This document shows positions 2,581-33,894 of a DNA stretch of 33,894 nucleotides, piece by piece. The position numbers and the translations under genes are program-made. The DNA is from an uncultured bacterium (GTDB taxonomy: Bacteria; Bacillota_I; Bacilli_A; RFN20; CAG-826). Location: assembly GCA_949299395.1 (NCBI GenBank), contig CASGAB010000012.1, positions 1 through 33,894 of the forward strand, read 5' to 3'. Positions within the stretch are counted from its first letter, which is position 1. The number at the start of each line of letters is the position of its first letter. Under the pieces are notes generated by a model. It saw only the letters and a program-made list of their open reading frames with translations. It did no database searches and had not been told where the DNA came from.

Positions 2581-2970
2581 TTATAATTTTAAATCTTCAA
2601 AGTGTTGTTTCTTGTCGATGATAATTTTATATCCATCGGATAGTACTTTATAAGTTCCCCTATCTAAAGGCATTGAAATCCATGATGGTTCTACAATACC
2701 AAATTCAACTTCTTTTCCATCTTTGTACCACACACGAATAGAAGTACAAGCACCATAATATTCTGTTTGTTGTTTGTAAATCTTCCCTAAACTCTTGCAT
2801 GAAGTCTTGCTTTGTAAGCATATCCGATTTATTTGATGTGATGATAACAATATCTAAATCTGAATTCTCTTTCTTTGTTCCCCTTGCATAAGCACCAACA
2901 ACAAGAATACTCTCAATATGTGAAGTACTCTCTGGATATTTTTTGAGGTAATTAAAAATTTTTCAAACAT
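2581..2970 (-). pseudogene. Nucleotidyltransferase (MNT-type) gene, two frameshifts
   Basis: Read on the minus strand from ATG at 2970, with ribosome binding site AGAGGAG (complement of 2981-2987), the gene begins MFEKF. A change of frame in the A/T run near 2950 then gives YPESTSHIESILVV and GAYARGTKKENSDLDIVI. This matches the G-x-x-A-R-G-(S/T)...D-x-D signature of Pol-beta-type nucleotidyltransferases (MNT and aminoglycoside nucleotidyltransferase-like). A second frame change near 2785 leads into IYKQQTEYYGACTSIRVW and ends EDLKL at 2581. The restored protein would be about 130 residues. An intact relative might be the MNT half of a HEPN/MNT pair, but no HEPN partner is visible. Confidence is high that it is broken, and moderate for its exact former function. 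Confidence 0.75.
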
Positions 2971-3050
2971 AATATTAACACTCCTCTAAATTCCAATTTG
3001 TTGCTCTTATCTATTTCACTTTATATCACTTCTTTATAAACTTTTCCACC

Positions 3051-3158
3051 ACCTCAATTACACTTGCTACTTTACTTCTTGAAGTTATCAAGACAAGTGA
3101 AATTGAGCCAAAAGAAGTAAAATGGCTGTGGTATCCGTATATTCTATTTGGAAAGTGA
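3051..3158 (+). pseudogene. Fragment of an AAA-family ATPase of mobile-element type
   Basis: From 3081 the plus strand reads EVIKTSEIEPKEVKWLWY followed by PYILFGK and a TGA at 3156. This resembles the N-terminal entry strand (W-L-W-Y-P-Y-I-P-F-G-K) that comes just before the Walker A loop in RepA-like AAA ATPases carried by Firmicute plasmids, prophages and conjugative elements. The Walker A motif expected next is absent, and upstream there is no start codon with a binding site. It is a short fossil. The family call is from memory of the motif and was not searched. Confidence 0.5.
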
Positions 3159-3713
3159 TAAAGTAAATGAATTTCGTACCACTATATTTCTTCTGATACT
3201 AAATATTTGCTAACTTATATATAAGATAGATCGTTTATTGTAATTAGATGTGAGTGGTGTAATAGAAGATTAACATTTCATTTAAAGATGTCTTGTTATT
3301 AGAAAAAATTCTTACCACTCAAAAATATTGTAATCTGTTGTAATGATTTTTCATATCTCACTTTTCTTAATTACCAAATAATATCTTTGCAAGAGATGAA
3401 ATAAGTTAATTTCCGTATGTTTTATAATAAGATTCTATAATTCAGCAGCCAATTCATTTATTCTTATTTCTAGCACCCCCGAAAGATTATAAATGATGTG
3501 GTACATTTTTTAATGGCCTTATTTGTAAAAATATTATAGCCTTATCAACTGACAATCTTAAACGTTGTCTTTCTTAACAATAATAAAAAATTTTTTCAAT
3601 TTAATGGGCTTATAAAAAATACCAAACCACTAGAAAGAAAAGAGCCTTTATTCATGAGTAAGTAAGTAGTAATAATTTAGTATATTTTTAGTTATTATAA
3701 GAACTATTTACTA

Positions 3714-3752
3714 TTAAATATATTATTGTTTATTGGTATAATTATTGAGATG
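3714..3752 (+). promoter_or_regulatory. Extended -10 promoter that places pyrH on a leaderless mRNA
   Basis: TGG directly followed by TATAAT (3734-3742) is an extended -10 element. The ATG of pyrH starts at 3750, eight bases after the last T, where transcription should begin. A poor -35 (TTAAAT, 3714-3719) lies at 17 bases. No Shine-Dalgarno sequence exists upstream of this ATG. Confidence 0.6.
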
Positions 3753-4481
3753 GAAAATCGTTGTTCAAATTTAAGGGTTATTTTAAAATTATCCGGTGAA
3801 GCCTTAAGTGATTCATCATCACATTTAATTTTTTCAAAAGAAAAAATGAATGATATTGTTGAGTTAATTATAAAATTACTCTCTAATAATGTTAGAGTTG
3901 GAGTAGTTTGTGGAGCTGGAAATATTTTTAGAGGTAGAATTGCTGAAGAAAATGGAATTCCTTATGAAGAAGGCGATTACATGGGAATGGTTGGAACTGT
4001 AATTAACTTAAAAGCAATTTCATCTATTCTTACAGTCCATGGAGTCAAAAATAAATTATATAGTGCTCTTGCTGTTGAAGATGTCGCACCAAAATATGAA
4101 ATCGGAAAAGCTAAAAATGAATTTGATAATGGTGAAGTAATTCTTTTTGCAGGTGGAGTTGGAAAAGTCCGTCATACTACCGATACATGCGCTGCTTTAA
4201 GAGCTATTGAAATGGAAGCTGATATGATATTAGCTGGAAAAAATGGTGTTGATGGAGTTTATGATAAAGATCCAAATAAATATAGCGATGCAAAGTTTAT
4301 TAAAAACTTAACATATAAAGATGCCATTGAAAAAGATTTAAAAGTTATGGATATGCAAGCTTTAAAATTATTAGAAAATAGCGATATCGTTACTAGAGTA
4401 TTCTCGATGGATGATTTTGATAATTTTATTAAAGTCATCAAAGGGGATGAAAATATAGGAACTACAATTAAAAAGGAGTAA
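3750..4481 (+). CDS. pyrH: Uridylate kinase (UMP kinase)
   Basis: UMP kinase phosphorylates UMP to UDP with ATP and is the first committed step toward UTP and CTP. The amino-acid-kinase fold is plain: VILKLSGEAL (residues 10-19), the nucleotide/UMP loop VCGAGNIFRGR (53-63), DYMGMVGT (76-83) and a C-terminal AGKNGVDGVYDKDP segment that binds the nucleotide. I chose ATG at 3750 (243 residues, a normal length). A TTG at 3726 would add eight residues upstream, but it has no ribosome binding site and would place the -10 box inside the gene. frr follows after five bases in one transcript. Confidence 0.95.
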   Translation: MENRCSNLRVILKLSGEALSDSSSHLIFSKEKMNDIVELIIKLLSNNVRVGVVCGAGNIFRGRIAEENGIPYEEGDYMGMVGTVINLKAISSILTVHGVKNKLYSALAVEDVAPKYEIGKAKNEFDNGEVILFAGGVGKVRHTTDTCAALRAIEMEADMILAGKNGVDGVYDKDPNKYSDAKFIKNLTYKDAIEKDLKVMDMQALKLLENSDIVTRVFSMDDFDNFIKVIKGDENIGTTIKKE

Positions 4482-4486
4482 AAATT

Positions 4487-5029
4487 ATGGATATTTTAAA
4501 TGAATGTAGTACAAAAATGGAAAAATGTGTTGCAAATTATAAAGATTCTTTAAACACATTAAGAACAGGAAGAGCAAATGCTGCCTTACTTGAAAATTTA
4601 ACTTGCGATTATTATGGCGATAGAATGCCTGTTACTCAAATTGCTGCAGTTAAAGTTCCAGAACCAAGACAACTTTTAATTGTTCCTTTTGATCAAAACG
4701 ATATTAAGAGTATTGTTGCTGCAATTAATGCTTCAGATATTGGAATTAATCCAATTGTTGATGGAAAACAAATAAGATTAAATATGCCTGCTTTAACTGA
4801 AGATAGAAGAAAAGAATTAACTAAGAAAGCTAAAACATATGGCGAAGAAGCAAAAGTTGCTATTAGAAATGTCCGTAGAGATTTAATGGACAAAATTAAA
4901 AAAGACGATACATATACTGAAGATACACGTAAACAAGAAGAAGGCGAAATTCAAAAGATTACTGATGAATTTATCGCAAAAATCGATACATTATTAAAAG
5001 AAAAAACTGAAGAAATCATGAAAGTCTAG
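4487..5029 (+). CDS. frr: Ribosome recycling factor
   Basis: RRF works with EF-G to split post-termination ribosomes. The 180-residue protein has the family's normal length and its typical features: LNTLRTGRANAALLENLTCDYYG near residues 23-45, the PVTQIAAVKVPEPRQLLIVPFD segment of the beta domain, and the long helices with LTEDRRKELTKKAK and VAIRNVRRDLMDKIKK. The ribosome binding site AAGGAG (4472-4477) overlaps the end of pyrH, five bases upstream of frr, so the two are probably translated in concert. It ends with TAG. Confidence 0.97.
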   Translation: MDILNECSTKMEKCVANYKDSLNTLRTGRANAALLENLTCDYYGDRMPVTQIAAVKVPEPRQLLIVPFDQNDIKSIVAAINASDIGINPIVDGKQIRLNMPALTEDRRKELTKKAKTYGEEAKVAIRNVRRDLMDKIKKDDTYTEDTRKQEEGEIQKITDEFIAKIDTLLKEKTEEIMKV

Positions 5030-5051
5030 TTTTTAAATAACTTTTTAAGGT

Positions 5052-6116
5052 ATGGAAGAGAATAATCAAAAAGATTCGCAATTAGAAACTCGAGAACATC
5101 ACGTCAACCAACTTAATAAAGAAGCTAAAAATAATATTGTTTCTAGAATTGTTATTGGTGCAATTTTAGTAGCGGTTGTTATTCCATGCGTAATTTTAGG
5201 CGGCTATTTTTGGCTCGCCTTAATTTTCTTTTTAGCCTTGATTATGACTCATGAATTATGCAAGGCTCCTCAATCAATTGAGAAAAAGTTTAAAAATATT
5301 ATTTATGTTTTTGCATATTTTATGATGTTTACGTTGGTTTATTATATCTTTTTAAAAGACTTAATTATTGAATATCAAAAATATTTAGCTAGCGGAAGTA
5401 CAGACCCATTTTATTTTGATATTTTAAGAGGCTTTAAAGGACCTCAAATTTCTTTAACTCTATTCTGCTTATCAATTGCATTTTTCTTTTTAAATGTTTT
5501 CTTTGATGAATCATTTACAATTCATGATGCTTTTTATTTAATCATGATGCTTTTTACAATTTCTTTAGGGCTTCAAAGTTTAATTTATATTAGATTTTTA
5601 CCATTTTTAAATCTTGATCCAGGAATTACTCCTGATCCTTTATTTAAATATTTCACTTCAACATTATTAATAATCTTTGTTTTAATGGGAACTTGTTTAA
5701 ATGATGTTGGTGCTTTCTTTATTGGTGTTTTATTTGGAAAACATAAATTATGTCCAAAAATTTCTCCTAAAAAGACTGTAGAAGGATTTGTTGGTGGAGT
5801 TATTTTTTCAATAGTTACTTCGTTTTTATACGGATTTATCCTTTCATATTTAGGATTCCCTCTTTTAGAAGGAGTTTTAGATTATGCTCATTGGTATAAC
5901 ATTTTAATTATTTCAATCATTATGCCACTTGTCGGTACACTTGGAGATTTACTTTTCTCATCAATTAAAAGAGCTTATAAAATTAAAGATTTTGGTACCA
6001 TTTTAAAATCACATGGCGGAATATTAGACCGCTTTGATTCAATTATTGTTACTGTTATTGCAGTTTCTTTAATTCTTTTAATTATGATTAACGGAGTTGG
6101 ATTTATCAACTTTTAA
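5052..6116 (+). CDS. cdsA: Phosphatidate cytidylyltransferase (CDP-diglyceride synthase)
   Basis: CdsA is an integral membrane enzyme that makes CDP-diacylglycerol from phosphatidate and CTP, the branch point to phosphatidylglycerol and cardiolipin. The family signature is intact near residues 303-331: SSIKRAYKIKDFG, then KSHGGILDRFDS. The protein has a charged N-terminal tail of about 30 residues and roughly eight hydrophobic segments. At 354 residues it is longer than the usual 260-290; the extra lies in the N-terminal tail and in long loops in the first half. Only AAGG two bases before the ATG resembles a binding site, so translation may depend on coupling to frr. dxr follows after two bases. 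Confidence 0.93.
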   Translation: MEENNQKDSQLETREHHVNQLNKEAKNNIVSRIVIGAILVAVVIPCVILGGYFWLALIFFLALIMTHELCKAPQSIEKKFKNIIYVFAYFMMFTLVYYIFLKDLIIEYQKYLASGSTDPFYFDILRGFKGPQISLTLFCLSIAFFFLNVFFDESFTIHDAFYLIMMLFTISLGLQSLIYIRFLPFLNLDPGITPDPLFKYFTSTLLIIFVLMGTCLNDVGAFFIGVLFGKHKLCPKISPKKTVEGFVGGVIFSIVTSFLYGFILSYLGFPLLEGVLDYAHWYNILIISIIMPLVGTLGDLLFSSIKRAYKIKDFGTILKSHGGILDRFDSIIVTVIAVSLILLIMINGVGFINF

Positions 6117-6118
6117 AA

Positions 6119-7273
6119 ATGAATAATATAATTATTTTAGGTGCTTCTGGAAGTATTGGAAGTCAGTCTATCGACATATTAAAGAAAAAAACAAGAACTT
6201 ATAATTTAATCGGGGTAAGCGTTGGGGATAATATCTCTTATTTAAAAAGAGAAATAATCCCTAGTTTTAATCTTAAATATATTTGTGTAAAAAATGAAAA
6301 TGACTATAAAGAACTTAGAAAACAATATAAAAATATTAAGTTTTTTCATGGTGATAAAGGGCTAATTTCTTTAACCAATATTGAAGAGTGCGATGTAATT
6401 TTAAATGCTTTAGTTGGATTTAGTGGTGTTTTACCTTCAATTTCTGCATTAAAAAATAACAAAAAGTTAATGCTTGCTAATAAAGAAAGTTTAGTAGTCG
6501 CTGGAGAAATAATTAAAAAAATAATTGGAAAAAGAAAATTACTTTATCCAATTGATAGTGAACATGCCGCAATAACTAAATGTTTAAAAAATGTTAATAA
6601 AAAGAATTTAAAAAGAATTTATTTAACCTGTTCAGGTGGACCATTTTTCTTTTTATCAAAAAAGAAATTTAAAGATATTAAAGTAAGTGATGCTTTAAAA
6701 CATCCAACATATAAAATGGGTAAAAAAATTACTATCGATTCTTCAACATTAATGAATAAAGCTTTTGAAATTATTGAAGCTCATTATTTATTTAATGTTC
6801 CAGCTAGTAAAATAAAGGTTAAGGTAGACCGTAAAAGCTATGTTCATTCTTTTATTGAATTAAAAGATGGAACTTATAAATTATCAGTTGGAAAACCAGA
6901 TATGCATATTCAAATTGAGGACTGCTTATCATTTTTTAAAACTAAAAGAAAAGAATTTAAAGATACTGAGATTAATACTCTTTCTAAATATAAATTTTAT
7001 GATGTTGATAAAACACGCTTTAAAGCCTTAGATTATGGCTATTTAGTTATTAAAAATAAAGGCATTTCAGGACTTGTTTTAAATGCTGCAAATGAGATTG
7101 CAGTCGAGGCTTTTTTATATGGTATTATTGATTATGTTGATATAAATAAAATTATTGATAAAATATTAAAGATGTACGATTTGACGACGCCTTTAAGTGA
7201 AGAAATGCTTGTCAAATTAAATAAAAAAGTTAGGATCGATACATCAAATTTGATAAAAATTAAGGAATTTTAA
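6119..7273 (+). CDS. dxr: 1-deoxy-D-xylulose 5-phosphate reductoisomerase
   Basis: DXR converts 1-deoxyxylulose 5-phosphate to methylerythritol 4-phosphate with NADPH, the first dedicated step of the MEP isoprenoid pathway. Visible features are the dinucleotide-binding loop GASGSIG (residues 8-14), LANKESLV (119-126), the metal ligands in PIDSEHAAI (D146, E148), the substrate loop TCSGGPF (170-176) and NKAFEIIEAHYLF (213-225). The length of 384 is normal. The ATG lies two bases after the cdsA stop and has no Shine-Dalgarno sequence, so initiation probably depends on termination of cdsA. The organism therefore appears to make isoprenoids by the MEP route. Confidence 0.96.
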   Translation: MNNIIILGASGSIGSQSIDILKKKTRTYNLIGVSVGDNISYLKREIIPSFNLKYICVKNENDYKELRKQYKNIKFFHGDKGLISLTNIEECDVILNALVGFSGVLPSISALKNNKKLMLANKESLVVAGEIIKKIIGKRKLLYPIDSEHAAITKCLKNVNKKNLKRIYLTCSGGPFFFLSKKKFKDIKVSDALKHPTYKMGKKITIDSSTLMNKAFEIIEAHYLFNVPASKIKVKVDRKSYVHSFIELKDGTYKLSVGKPDMHIQIEDCLSFFKTKRKEFKDTEINTLSKYKFYDVDKTRFKALDYGYLVIKNKGISGLVLNAANEIAVEAFLYGIIDYVDINKIIDKILKMYDLTTPLSEEMLVKLNKKVRIDTSNLIKIKEF

Positions 7274-30243: not shown

Positions 30244-30325
30244 CCTAGAAATCGATATCTTTATATAAATTAGTAGGTGAACAATCCTATCTCATTTGCT
30301 CCTTAACTCTTGGAGGTGCATATGC

Positions 30326-31426
30326 ATGATAAGAGTTATAGAGTTATTTGCTGGTATAGGAAGTCAGCGAGAAGCATTAAAAAGAGCTAATATCGAGCAT
30401 GAAATAGTAGCGATTAGTGAAAATGATAAATATGCAAGTAAGGCTTATGAGTTACTTCATGGAGCAACTACTAATTTAGGAGATATAAGAGAAATAGAAA
30501 GATTGCCTAAAGCGGACTTATGGACTTACTCGTTTCCTTGCACTGATATAAGTTTAGCAGGAAAAATGAAAGGCTTTGAAAAAGGTAGTAATACTCATTC
30601 ATCACTCTTATGGGAAGTTCAAAGACTACTTGAAGTATCAAAAGAAAATGATGAACTTCCTAAATATTTGTTGATGGAAAATGTGAAGAATATAGTATCA
30701 AAGAAGTTTATGCCATTATTTCAAGTGTGGTTAGATTATTTAACTAATCTAGGATATAAGAATTTTTATAAGGTGTTGAACGCTAGGGACTATGGTATTC
30801 CACAAAATAGAGAACGCTGCTTTATGATTTCAATTAGAGATCAAAATGCTAACTATGAGTTTCCAAAACCCATTAAATTAAACAAAAAGCTTGCAGATCT
30901 ATTAGAAAATGATGTGGATGAGAAATATTTTCTTAGTGAAAAGCTCATCACTTGTTTTGCTGATATGAAAGATAGACATGGTCTTATTCGTGGACTTAGA
31001 TTTAAACCTAAATATATGAATGAAACCGATTATGCTTTTGCTATCACTACTCACGCTGGTTATAGACCAACCGATAATTACATCATTATTCCACAAGCTA
31101 CTAAAGAAGGTTATGAGCTAGCCGAAGTAGGTGATGGTGTTTATACAAATAGATGTCCATCAAAAAGAGGAGTGGTTCAAAGATCGATGATTCCTACCAT
31201 CAAAACATCAGTAACTGATATAGGAGTGGTTGCTAATGATAAGGATGAACTTATCTCCATTAGAAGATTAACGCCTAGGGAGTGTTGGCGACTTATGGGC
31301 TGGCATGATAATGAAATAAATAAGGTCATTAATGAGTTTAGTAATAATCAACTGTACAAGATGGCAGGGAATGGGGTAGTAGTGGATATTTTAGAAAGTA
31401 TGCTGGAAAATTTACAAAATGCTTAA
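30326..31426 (+). CDS. DNA (cytosine-5)-methyltransferase
   Basis: The enzyme transfers a methyl group from S-adenosylmethionine to C5 of cytosine in a specific DNA sequence. Visible motifs are I (IELFAGIGS, residues 5-13), IV with the catalytic Cys72 in SFPCTDIS, VI (MENV), VIII (QNRERCFMI) and X (MAGNGVVVDIL near the C-terminus). All are in standard order, with the target recognition region between VIII and X. I chose ATG at 30326 (366 residues) because GGAGG lies nine bases upstream and motif I then begins at the usual distance; a TTG at 30296 would add ten residues ahead of that binding site. The gene opens the island after tRNA-Leu. Its stop codon overlaps the promoter region of the XRE gene. 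Confidence 0.95.
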   Translation: MIRVIELFAGIGSQREALKRANIEHEIVAISENDKYASKAYELLHGATTNLGDIREIERLPKADLWTYSFPCTDISLAGKMKGFEKGSNTHSSLLWEVQRLLEVSKENDELPKYLLMENVKNIVSKKFMPLFQVWLDYLTNLGYKNFYKVLNARDYGIPQNRERCFMISIRDQNANYEFPKPIKLNKKLADLLENDVDEKYFLSEKLITCFADMKDRHGLIRGLRFKPKYMNETDYAFAITTHAGYRPTDNYIIIPQATKEGYELAEVGDGVYTNRCPSKRGVVQRSMIPTIKTSVTDIGVVANDKDELISIRRLTPRECWRLMGWHDNEINKVINEFSNNQLYKMAGNGVVVDILESMLENLQNA

Positions 31427-31468: not shown

Positions 31469-31660
31469 ATGGAATATACAAGGATTATTCGAGAATTAAG
31501 AGAGAAAATGATTGTTTCACAAAAAGAGTTAGCAGATTTGCTAGATGTTAACTTTACAACGATTAGTAGGTGGGAAAATGGTAAATGTGAGCCTACTATT
31601 AAAGCTAAAAGAAAAATAGTTGCTCTATGCAAAAAATATAAAATTTTTACGGGAAAGTAG
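31469..31660 (+). CDS. Small XRE-family HTH regulator, probable controller (C) protein
   Basis: The 63-residue protein is one helix-turn-helix domain: IIRELREKMIVSQKELADLL (residues 6-25), then DVNFTTISRWENGKCEPT with the recognition helix TTISRWENG. A short Lys-rich tail follows. Such single-domain XRE proteins next to DNA methyltransferase genes are typically restriction-modification controller proteins, which time methylase and nuclease expression. AAGGTG (31458-31463) lies five bases before the ATG, and a strong promoter with a dyad sits just upstream. The fused methyltransferase gene begins seven bases after its stop codon, so they form one transcript. Confidence 0.88.
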   Translation: MEYTRIIRELREKMIVSQKELADLLDVNFTTISRWENGKCEPTIKAKRKIVALCKKYKIFTGK

Positions 31661-31667
31661 GTAAAAT

Positions 31668-33755
31668 ATGGCTAACAAAAATACGAATCTGCAAAACGCT
31701 AAATATTTAAAAGATGATGAATTTTACACAACTTATGAAACGATAGAAGAGGAACTATCAAATTATAAGGAACAATTTAAAGATAAAACCGTTTTATGTA
31801 ATTGTGATGATCCATTTGAATCTAATTTTTGCCTTTATTTTTTAAGAAACTTCAAATTTCTAGAATTAAAACGATTAATATGCACAACTTATTATTCATC
31901 AAAAATATCACGAAAATTAAAAACAAATAAAAGAAGGAAAACTGGCTTTGTTTTAGATACAGACTTAATAAAGAACTTTGATGATATTAATTTAAATAAT
32001 ATTCTTGATAGTAATGAGAAGATATACGAATCAATAAGAGATTTGTCTGGTGATGGAGATTTCAGGAGCGAAGAATGCATTACTTATTTAACTCAGTCAG
32101 ATATAGTGGTTACTAATCCACCATTTTCATTATTTAAAGATTTTGTTTCATTAATGATTAAGCATGATAAGAAATTTTTGATAATAGGCAATCAAAATGC
32201 ATTAACTTATAAAGAGATATTTCCTTTAATACAACAAGGGAAAGTATGGACAGGCTATAAATTCGGAGAAATGAAATTTATGGTTCCTGATTTTTCTATG
32301 CCAAGAACAATAAGATATTGGGTTGATGAAAAAGGACAAAAATGGAGAAGCATGGGTAATGCAATGTGGTTGACTAACTTAGATACGAAAAGACGTCATG
32401 AATTTTTAAATTTAACAAAACATTATAATCCAGAAGATTATCCTAAATATGATAATTATGATGCCATTAATGTAAAGACTATTAGAGACATCCCTGTTGA
32501 TTATAGCGGTATTATGGGAGTTCCTATTACAATAATTAACAAATTTAACAATGAACAATTTGAAATTATAGGTGAAGCAAATCATGGTTCTGATAGTGAA
32601 TACGATTTGTTTAAACCAGCTATCAATGGTAGAGAAATTTTTAAACGTATATTAATAAGAAATAAAAATCCAGAAAACCATCGAATTAAAAATTTTAGAG
32701 TACTAGATCTATTTTCTGGTGCAGGTGGTTTTTCTTATGGTTTAGAAAAAAATCAACATTTTAAAACTGTTATTGCCGTCGATTTTAATGAGAAAGCGCT
32801 AGAAACTTTCCATAAGAATATGCCTGATGCACAAATAATTAATGGTGATATTACAGATTGCAAAGTGAAAAAAGACATCATTGCCAAAAGTTTGAGTGCT
32901 AAGATTAATATGATTATTGGTGGTCCACCATGTCAAGGTTTTTCACTTAAAGGTAAAAAGCTTGGTTTGAAAGACCCAAGAAATTTCTTGTTTAATGAAT
33001 ACTTAAATTTAGTTGCTGTTATAAAGCCAGAAGTTTTTGTCATTGAAAATGTTAAATCATTAATGTCTACCTCATCAGGTTGGTTTAAAAATGAAATTAT
33101 AAATAGGGTAGAAAAAATGGGGTATTTTATAAGTTGCGGAATATTAACTGCATCTGATTTCGGAGTACCACAAGCTAGACAAAGAGCCATTTTTATTTGC
33201 TGTAAATACAAAAAAATTAATTTACCTCTTCCTAAAAACAATACAATCGTTACTGTTAGAGATGCGATTTCTGATTTAGCTTATTTAGAATCTGGCGAAG
33301 GCGATTTTGTTCAACCATATATAACTAATCCAACAAGTTCTTATCAAATTGAAATGAGAAGAGGGAGTGAAGCGTTATACAATCATAGGGCTTCCAATCA
33401 TCTTAGTATTGCAATAAAAAAGCTCTCTTTAATTCCGCCTGAAAGTGGTAAAGAATATTTGCCAAAAAATTTGTTGGGAAAGCAAAAATTTAGTGGAACT
33501 TGGGGAAGATTGGTGTGGGATGATGTTTCTCCTACAATTGATACTCGCTTTGATGCGTGTTCGAACGGGCAAAATAATCATCCTTTTTTGAACAGGGCAA
33601 TCACACCACGTGAAGCGGCTAGATTACAGTCATTTGACGATAAATTTATTTTTATTGGACCAAAACTTTATATAAGACAACAAATTGGTAACGCTGTTCC
33701 GCCATTATTGGCAAAAGCAATAGCAGATAAAATTTTTGAAGAGTTAGGGGAGTGA
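31668..33755 (+). CDS. Fused adenine (EcoRI-like) and cytosine-5 DNA methyltransferase
   Basis: Two complete DNA methyltransferases are joined in 695 residues. Residues 1 to about 335 follow the EcoRI-type adenine methyltransferase family: NLQNAKYLKDDEFYTTYETI at the start, VLCNCDDPFESNF (42-54), DGDFRSEECI, the catalytic DIVVTNPPF (145-153), FLIIGNQNALTYKEIFPL and YPKYDNYDAI. After a linker of about ten residues the second half (342-695) is a cytosine-5 enzyme: motif I LDLFSGAGGF (346-355), IV GGPPCQGFS (catalytic C422), VI ENVKS, VIII QARQRAIF and X GNAVPP (674-679). No frameshift is needed: the frame is open throughout and both active sites look intact. It ends with TGA, unlike the chromosomal genes here, and follows the XRE gene by seven bases. 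Confidence 0.95.
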   Translation: MANKNTNLQNAKYLKDDEFYTTYETIEEELSNYKEQFKDKTVLCNCDDPFESNFCLYFLRNFKFLELKRLICTTYYSSKISRKLKTNKRRKTGFVLDTDLIKNFDDINLNNILDSNEKIYESIRDLSGDGDFRSEECITYLTQSDIVVTNPPFSLFKDFVSLMIKHDKKFLIIGNQNALTYKEIFPLIQQGKVWTGYKFGEMKFMVPDFSMPRTIRYWVDEKGQKWRSMGNAMWLTNLDTKRRHEFLNLTKHYNPEDYPKYDNYDAINVKTIRDIPVDYSGIMGVPITIINKFNNEQFEIIGEANHGSDSEYDLFKPAINGREIFKRILIRNKNPENHRIKNFRVLDLFSGAGGFSYGLEKNQHFKTVIAVDFNEKALETFHKNMPDAQIINGDITDCKVKKDIIAKSLSAKINMIIGGPPCQGFSLKGKKLGLKDPRNFLFNEYLNLVAVIKPEVFVIENVKSLMSTSSGWFKNEIINRVEKMGYFISCGILTASDFGVPQARQRAIFICCKYKKINLPLPKNNTIVTVRDAISDLAYLESGEGDFVQPYITNPTSSYQIEMRRGSEALYNHRASNHLSIAIKKLSLIPPESGKEYLPKNLLGKQKFSGTWGRLVWDDVSPTIDTRFDACSNGQNNHPFLNRAITPREAARLQSFDDKFIFIGPKLYIRQQIGNAVPPLLAKAIADKIFEELGE

Positions 33756-33759
33756 TTTT

Positions 33760-33894
33760 ATGAATGCAGAAATGGCATATTTAATTGGAATGATTTTAGG
33801 GAATGGTGAAATACAAAGGGGTAATCAGCAAACAACTGTAACCATTGATATTCCATATAAAAATTTGTATACAGATGATTTAAAAGACGTTGCT
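33760..33894 (+). CDS. Island gene cut by window end; LAGLIDADG-like N-terminus, nuclease candidate
   Basis: An ATG at 33760 with an excellent binding site (AGGGGAG, 33746-33752) begins four bases after the fused methyltransferase stop codon. The 45 visible residues start MNAEMAYLIGMILGNGEIQR and continue TTVTIDIPYKNLYTDDLKDV. AYLIGMILGNGEI has the shape of a LAGLIDADG helix (L-x-G-x-I-x-x-x-G), but the usual last Asp is Asn. As the next gene of the methyltransferase operon it is the natural candidate for the restriction nuclease or other effector. Function cannot be decided from this fragment. Confidence 0.7.
   Translation, partial: MNAEMAYLIGMILGNGEIQRGNQQTTVTIDIPYKNLYTDDLKDVA

Follow-up and report, generated by a model that had tools for sequence, protein, structure and literature searches.

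A single open reading frame at the end of a contig from an uncultured bacterium encodes an EcoRI-family adenine methyltransferase (MTase) fused to a 5-methylcytosine (m5C) MTase, and the two genes that follow it in its relatives suggest that it belongs to an unusual restriction-modification (R-M) system. We consider it probable that in this system an adenine and a cytosine MTase, either fused or split, modify one site, that a protein here called ORF2 reads this site, and that a second one, ORF3, cuts. With less assurance, we lean to the further view that ORF2 and ORF3 make up a Type II restriction enzyme of a new class, in which a dead LAGLIDADG-like reader directs a minimal PD-(D/E)XK nuclease and the protection comes from exchangeable pairs of adenine and cytosine MTases, fused or split.

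The fused methyltransferase and its genomic context

The window, i.e. the whole stretch of 33,894 nucleotides analysed here, is an entire contig, and it ends 139 bases past the stop codon of the fused gene, inside the next gene of the operon. The features discussed in the text are as follows.

30296-31426, + strand: second, unrelated m5C MTase gene directly upstream (Pfam)
31469..31660, + strand: XRE-type helix-turn-helix (HTH) protein of 63 aa, separated from the fusion by 7 bases (Pfam HTH_3, E 2.2e-11)
31668..33755, + strand: fused DNA methyltransferase of 695 aa, m6A half followed by m5C half (open frame, Pfam, full-length fused relatives)
31686..32666, + strand: adenine MTase half, residues 7-333, PF13651 (Pfam; NPPF catalytic motif at 32115-32126)
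32667..32691, + strand: junction or linker of about 8-12 residues (the overlapping stop and start of split relatives map here)
32694..33737, + strand: m5C MTase half, residues 343-690, PF00145 (Pfam)
32931-32933, + strand: catalytic Cys422 of the m5C half (PPCQ motif)
33174-33587, + strand: m5C target-recognition domain (TRD), about residues 503-640 (TRD comparison across relatives)
33760..33894, + strand: start of ORF2, a LAGLIDADG-fold protein that has about 290 aa in relatives; the contig ends after its codon 45
33802-33804, + strand: Asn15 of ORF2, at the position of the catalytic Asp in LAGLIDADG motif 1

The fused gene is one frame of 695 codons with no internal stop. EcoRI_methylase (PF13651) matches its residues 7-333 along positions 1-345 of a profile of 345 (E 9.8e-118; 393.8 bits against a curated cut-off of 26.4), and DNA_methylase (PF00145) matches residues 343-690 along positions 1-323 of 324 (E 1.5e-69); both MTase domains are complete and no part of either half is missing. 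This agrees with the initial annotation, which had described one protein joining an EcoRI-like m6A MTase to a full m5C MTase and had advised the Pfam search of both halves. The motifs that it had named, NPPF at residues 150-153 and PCQ with C422, were both located, and so were the other main m5C motifs (I, DLFSGAGG; VI, ENV; VIII, QARQR; IX, REAARLQ; X, GNAVPP); the other proteins with the same domain order that it had advised looking for exist as about 30 fused relatives. The catalytic and m5C motifs are common to the full-length fused relatives, which have 62-69% identity, and among solved structures DNMT1, HaeIII and HhaI come nearest to the m5C half. With 391 copies of the EcoRI site GAATTC, the genome shows no avoidance of it, which is uninformative on the specificity of the MTase.

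Downstream of the fusion, the last 135 bases of the window hold 45 codons that share 82% identity with ORF2 of the Lachnospiraceae phage NatCom_40364, in which ORF2 is the gene directly after the fused MTase; the rest of ORF2 and the whole of ORF3 were not found in this assembly. Upstream, the XRE-type protein is possibly a controller of the R-M genes, and several related loci, such as L004, L096, L099, L106 and L128, likewise have a small HTH-like ORF just 5' of their first MTase gene. The unrelated m5C MTase further upstream has a homologue in L192 (7116-8252) whose neighbours are an m5C~m6A fusion and a gene for an HNH nuclease, an arrangement that suggests a shared defence neighbourhood.

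ORF2 and ORF3 as a putative restriction enzyme

Further relatives were gathered by scanning genome contigs with the downstream gene as query; for viral contigs a single-protein scan matched nothing and an alignment-based scan succeeded. The counts given in this paper are of loci and not of independent events, the rows L003/L092, L005/L006 and L013/L091 being near-duplicates. The gene order in the relatives is one or two MTase genes, then ORF2 (about 290 aa) and then ORF3 (about 165 aa). Both of the latter are present at every uncut ORF2 locus except L141, which is without ORF3, and in most loci their reading frames share about 4-20 bases. Searches with the two sequences gave nothing convincing in Pfam, NCBIfam, PADLOC, PHROGs and PDB; weak matches to colicin Z and YhcG_C were below the cut-off and were ignored.

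The structure model of ORF2 (pLDDT 89) is of the LAGLIDADG fold, with Foldseek ranks 1-45 all occupied by LAGLIDADG proteins (best E 2.6e-6) and VIA-align Z scores of 14.9 for PI-SceI, 13.6 for I-DmoI and 13.1 for WhiA. Like the homing endonucleases PI-SceI and I-DmoI it has two motifs in one chain, namely GMILGNGEI and LRGIADVTGYI. Unlike them, it has Asn15 and Thr130 at the positions of the catalytic acids in 64 of 64 sequences, an assignment made from the motif pattern and from the I-DmoI alignment, which begins without gaps (model residue 1 to chain residue 7), and not from a residue-by-residue superposition or an experimental structure. It differs from them also in its setting, since neither an intron nor an intein was visible around it in the loci examined and ORF2 is a free-standing gene, always inside an R-M operon.

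The ORF3 model (pLDDT 95) has the PD-(D/E)XK core fold. Its top matches are restriction enzymes and resolvases, with PaqCI, EcoRI, MspJI and BamHI as the best, at moderate scores (Z 8.4 for PaqCI and 7.1 for the small subunit R.BspD6I2; no Foldseek E under 0.001). Residues E8, D66, E83, K85 and Q96 are invariant in 56 of 56 sequences, and D66, E83 and K85 are the residues of the D...ExK motif. ORF3 is, as modelled, a small PD-(D/E)XK nuclease, and since it has only one apparent active site, cutting of both strands would need either dimerisation or sequential cuts.

From these genes together we infer the following scheme of restriction. The EcoRI-family half would methylate adenine (m6A) and the C-terminal half cytosine (m5C); the two marks, most probably placed one on each strand of a single site, would protect the host DNA. 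ORF2, keeping the LAGLIDADG fold without either catalytic acid, would read the site, ORF3 would cut as a separate nuclease, and these next two genes of the operon would form the matching Type II restriction enzyme. A different division of labour, which we hold unlikely, would make ORF2 a WhiA-like regulator or the relic of a homing element instead of a recognition subunit, and would leave ORF3 alone as the restriction enzyme. WhiA is a LAGLIDADG-fold DNA-binding protein with no nuclease role and is itself among the matches of ORF2, and ORF3 has the full PD-(D/E)XK residue set. However, at 165 aa ORF3 is barely more than a nuclease core and has no evident DNA-recognition domain, the lack of any visible intron or intein around ORF2 argues against a homing relic, and the two genes, overlapping in most loci, stay together through every swap of the MTases.

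Methyltransferase pairs and the site that they would modify

The EcoRI-type m6A and m5C enzymes occur at ORF2 loci as fused genes in 32 rows and as split genes in 25 rows, plus one decayed copy. At 22 ORF2 loci there is instead a gamma-type N6 enzyme (NPPY) together with a beta-type enzyme carrying SPPY, predicted to make m4C; SPPY goes with the m4C mark and DPPY with the m6A mark (PMC12898733), and the assignments here remain predictions. An N6 and an m5C enzyme accompany ORF2 and ORF3 in L160 as separate genes, in L170 as a fusion and in L171 as a fusion that is cut. Each uncut ORF2 locus has exactly one adenine MTase and one cytosine MTase, also where unrelated families have been swapped in, and the loci showing fewer MTases are truncated by the end of a contig. 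On the tree of ORF2 and ORF3 the MTase combination changes three times. The TRD of an m5C enzyme is usually its most variable part; here it has 61-76% identity to that of the window across fused, split and N6-paired members, and is as conserved as the catalytic core.

Some of these loci have peculiarities of their own. L170 and L171, from two Bacteroidales MAGs, have the order m5C~N6 and are an independent cytosine-adenine fusion. In many of the loci with N6 and m4C enzymes, small uncharacterised ORFs of 112-162 aa stand between the m4C-type gene and ORF2 (L143, 5497-5985; L147, 5642-5986), and one locus of this kind, L012, has a NOV_C-domain protein (2868-3944). In Streptobacillus notomytis (L133, 4354-7366) the whole module has decayed into short frames. 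The viral contig L011 has the fused MTase (4965-7148) with no ORF2 or ORF3 within the 12 kb examined, possibly as a phage self-protection enzyme, and hence the MTase can occur without them.

Because one adenine and one cytosine MTase are always paired, the site would be asymmetric, and the simplest reading, well if indirectly supported by this pairing and by the conserved TRD, is a single conserved asymmetric site in which A is marked on one strand and C on the other. The search for the recognition site by homology did not yield it, and the sites of HpyAV (CCTTC) and of HphI type (GGTGA) are only leads.

Two other readings of the site have to be weighed. The initial annotation had named two different sites as an alternative, which is less likely than one. 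In this case the fusion would be a dual-specificity methylase that shields a mobile element from two host restriction systems, and the neighbouring genes would be unrelated to it in their job. Phages do have multispecific MTases, the gene is found on phages as well as plasmids, and L011 carries the fusion by itself; however, in all other uncut loci ORF2 and ORF3 are there (but for the missing ORF3 of L141), the pairing of A and C survives the swaps of MTase families, and protective specificities should give varied TRDs whereas the m5C TRD is uniformly conserved, so that we regard this reading as quite improbable. A slightly smaller chance still is given to the adenine and cytosine marks lying on the same strand, or to a palindromic site with each half redundantly modifying both strands. 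M.EcoRI does act on a palindrome, GAATTC (PMC4081073), but a single MTase suffices for a palindrome, and yet the loci always retain two that differ in base chemistry; the known m6A and m5C pairs modify opposite strands of asymmetric sites.

Fused and split relatives

The same fusion occurs in about 30 relatives, on closed plasmids, in phages and in cultured isolates. Those at 62-69% identity come from two gut phages and from closed plasmids of Lactiplantibacillus plantarum, and more copies come from cultured isolates including [Ruminococcus] torques ATCC 27756, Ruminococcus albus 8 and Streptococcus suis. The linker in fused relatives has 10-12 residues, and dN/dS of the fused genes is 0.04-0.17 in both halves, which indicates purifying selection. 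In about 24 distinct relatives the two MTase genes are separate and adjacent, with ends that mostly overlap: of 25 split junctions listed, 9 have an overlap of 11 bases and another 9 an overlap of 4 bases (18 of 25 together).

The fused or split state changes 8 times on the MTase tree, with at least 5 of the changes forced by well-supported branches, and 10 times on the independent tree of ORF2 and ORF3; with the root not known, no direction is claimed for any of these changes. Conversion between the two states may proceed by small indels at the overlapping gene ends, to judge from the junctions. Since the state switches repeatedly on both trees, fusion is a recurrent and dispensable state of a two-gene arrangement. 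This bears on the initial annotation's proposal that an adenine-plus-cytosine enzyme could mark two bases of one asymmetric site in one binding event. The one asymmetric site is in line with the pairing of A and C in all complete loci and with the conserved m5C TRD; the one binding event is unsupported and not needed, because the fusion itself is dispensable and the split relatives use two separate proteins.

That the fusion is an artefact of sequencing or assembly, joining two neighbour genes, has next to no probability and is rejected for the family: the window does belong to a draft assembly, as one of its contigs, and there are relatives with split genes, but closed plasmids and several isolates carry independent fused genes, with their short linkers and under purifying selection. 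The full-length fusion is absent from 25 of the 25 other genomes of the genus that were examined, which is consistent with its recent acquisition by this strain. As a separate observation, L093 and L094 are near-identical loci from MAGs labelled Desulfobulbaceae and Clostridiales, and one of the two labels is probably due to contamination or misbinning.

Comparison with known systems

The novelty that the initial annotation had implied for an m6A-m5C fusion was not borne out, as such fusions are already documented for Esp3I/BsmBI (PMC3874165) and HpyAV (PMC2816704). Type IIS systems usually rely for modification on two MTases, which in some cases are fused (PMC3874165, PMC2816704, PMC12898733), and the unfused MTase pair of Eco31I modifies A and C on complementary strands. 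Fused enzymes have been described as "DoubleMTases", among which those of Esp3I and BsmBI are a gamma-MTase fused to an m5C-MTase and those of BssSI and BseRI are m6A~m4C fusions (PMC3874165). On re-sequencing, M.HpyAV was judged to be a true fusion, of the kind C5~N6A, and its restriction enzyme is of the HNH type (PMC2816704).

Among the closest known systems are M.Esp3I and M.BsmBI (CGTCTC), each one natural protein that serves both strands of an asymmetric Type IIS site, one with m6A and the other with m5C, the adenine domain being listed first (PMC3874165); however, their adenine half is a gamma-MTase and their m5C half is circularly permuted, whereas in the window the adenine half is of the EcoRI family and the m5C motifs follow the canonical order. 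M.HpyAV (CCTTC) and the split M1/M2.Hin4II have C5 and N6A MTases fused in one and apart in the other, which is the same pattern of fused and split forms (PMC2816704). The difference is that HpyAV is C5~N6A with an HNH enzyme, while the protein of the window has the order A then C and goes with LAGLIDADG and PD-(D/E)XK genes; no HNH gene, as HpyAV/Hin4II-type systems have, was found at the ORF2 loci examined, where ORF2 and ORF3 stand next to the MTases instead. MhoVII of Mycoplasma hominis (GATG/CATC) likewise fuses MTases of unrelated classes for the complementary strands of an asymmetric site, as established experimentally (PMC12898733), but both of its halves make m6A, and its families and restriction enzyme are unrelated to those of the window.

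Close kin of the m5C half are found in Mollicutes and a Mycoplasma prophage, in fusions of about 600 aa with a beta-type m6A enzyme (DPPY) and in the order opposite to that of the window (L009 3995-5797, L180-L188, L193-L197). An HNH nuclease gene, recognised by similarity to the HNH protein of plasmid pLY7801, adjoins the m5C kin in 6 of the 7 loci checked, all of them Mollicute loci or pLY7801, with L197 giving no match. These m5C~beta-m6A systems with HNH genes look closer to HpyAV. The beta-type enzyme of the Mollicutes being a third kind, one m5C family is partnered by three unrelated adenine families. The plasmid pLY7801 (L007) was considered as a case of m5C and HNH genes without an adenine partner, which was rejected, as a decayed DPPY-type adenine MTase in three broken frames lies just after the m5C gene, across the plasmid origin (1-900 and 8266-9348). 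M.Phi145I (GGWGA) was compared by eye and is of a beta-class kind visibly different from the mollicute beta half.

On the side of restriction, ORF3 resembles the small catalytic subunit of R.BspD6I, in which recognition and cutting are split over two proteins, as is proposed here. In heterodimeric Type IIT enzymes, by contrast, each subunit has its own active site, and ORF2 has a LAGLIDADG fold without catalytic acids. We found no restriction enzyme with a LAGLIDADG recognition subunit in the open-access literature on LAGLIDADG and restriction, which is weak evidence of absence, and the word LAGLIDADG is absent from the Type II enzyme review PMC4081073. The system of the window differs from the known m6A~m5C fusions by its EcoRI-family adenine half, by its canonical m5C order and, above all, by its putative restriction genes; the fusion itself is a further double methyltransferase, and the operon context is the more unusual part.

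Implications

For the engineering of DNA recognition, homing endonucleases are highly valued. If the proposed system is true, a disarmed LAGLIDADG protein working with a separate nuclease would be a natural, ready-made model for modular cutters. At the same time, unrelated MTases swapped around one restriction module, always one for adenine and one for cytosine, would offer an uncommon natural experiment on how a system holds its specificity as the modification chemistry changes, i.e. between m5C and m4C.
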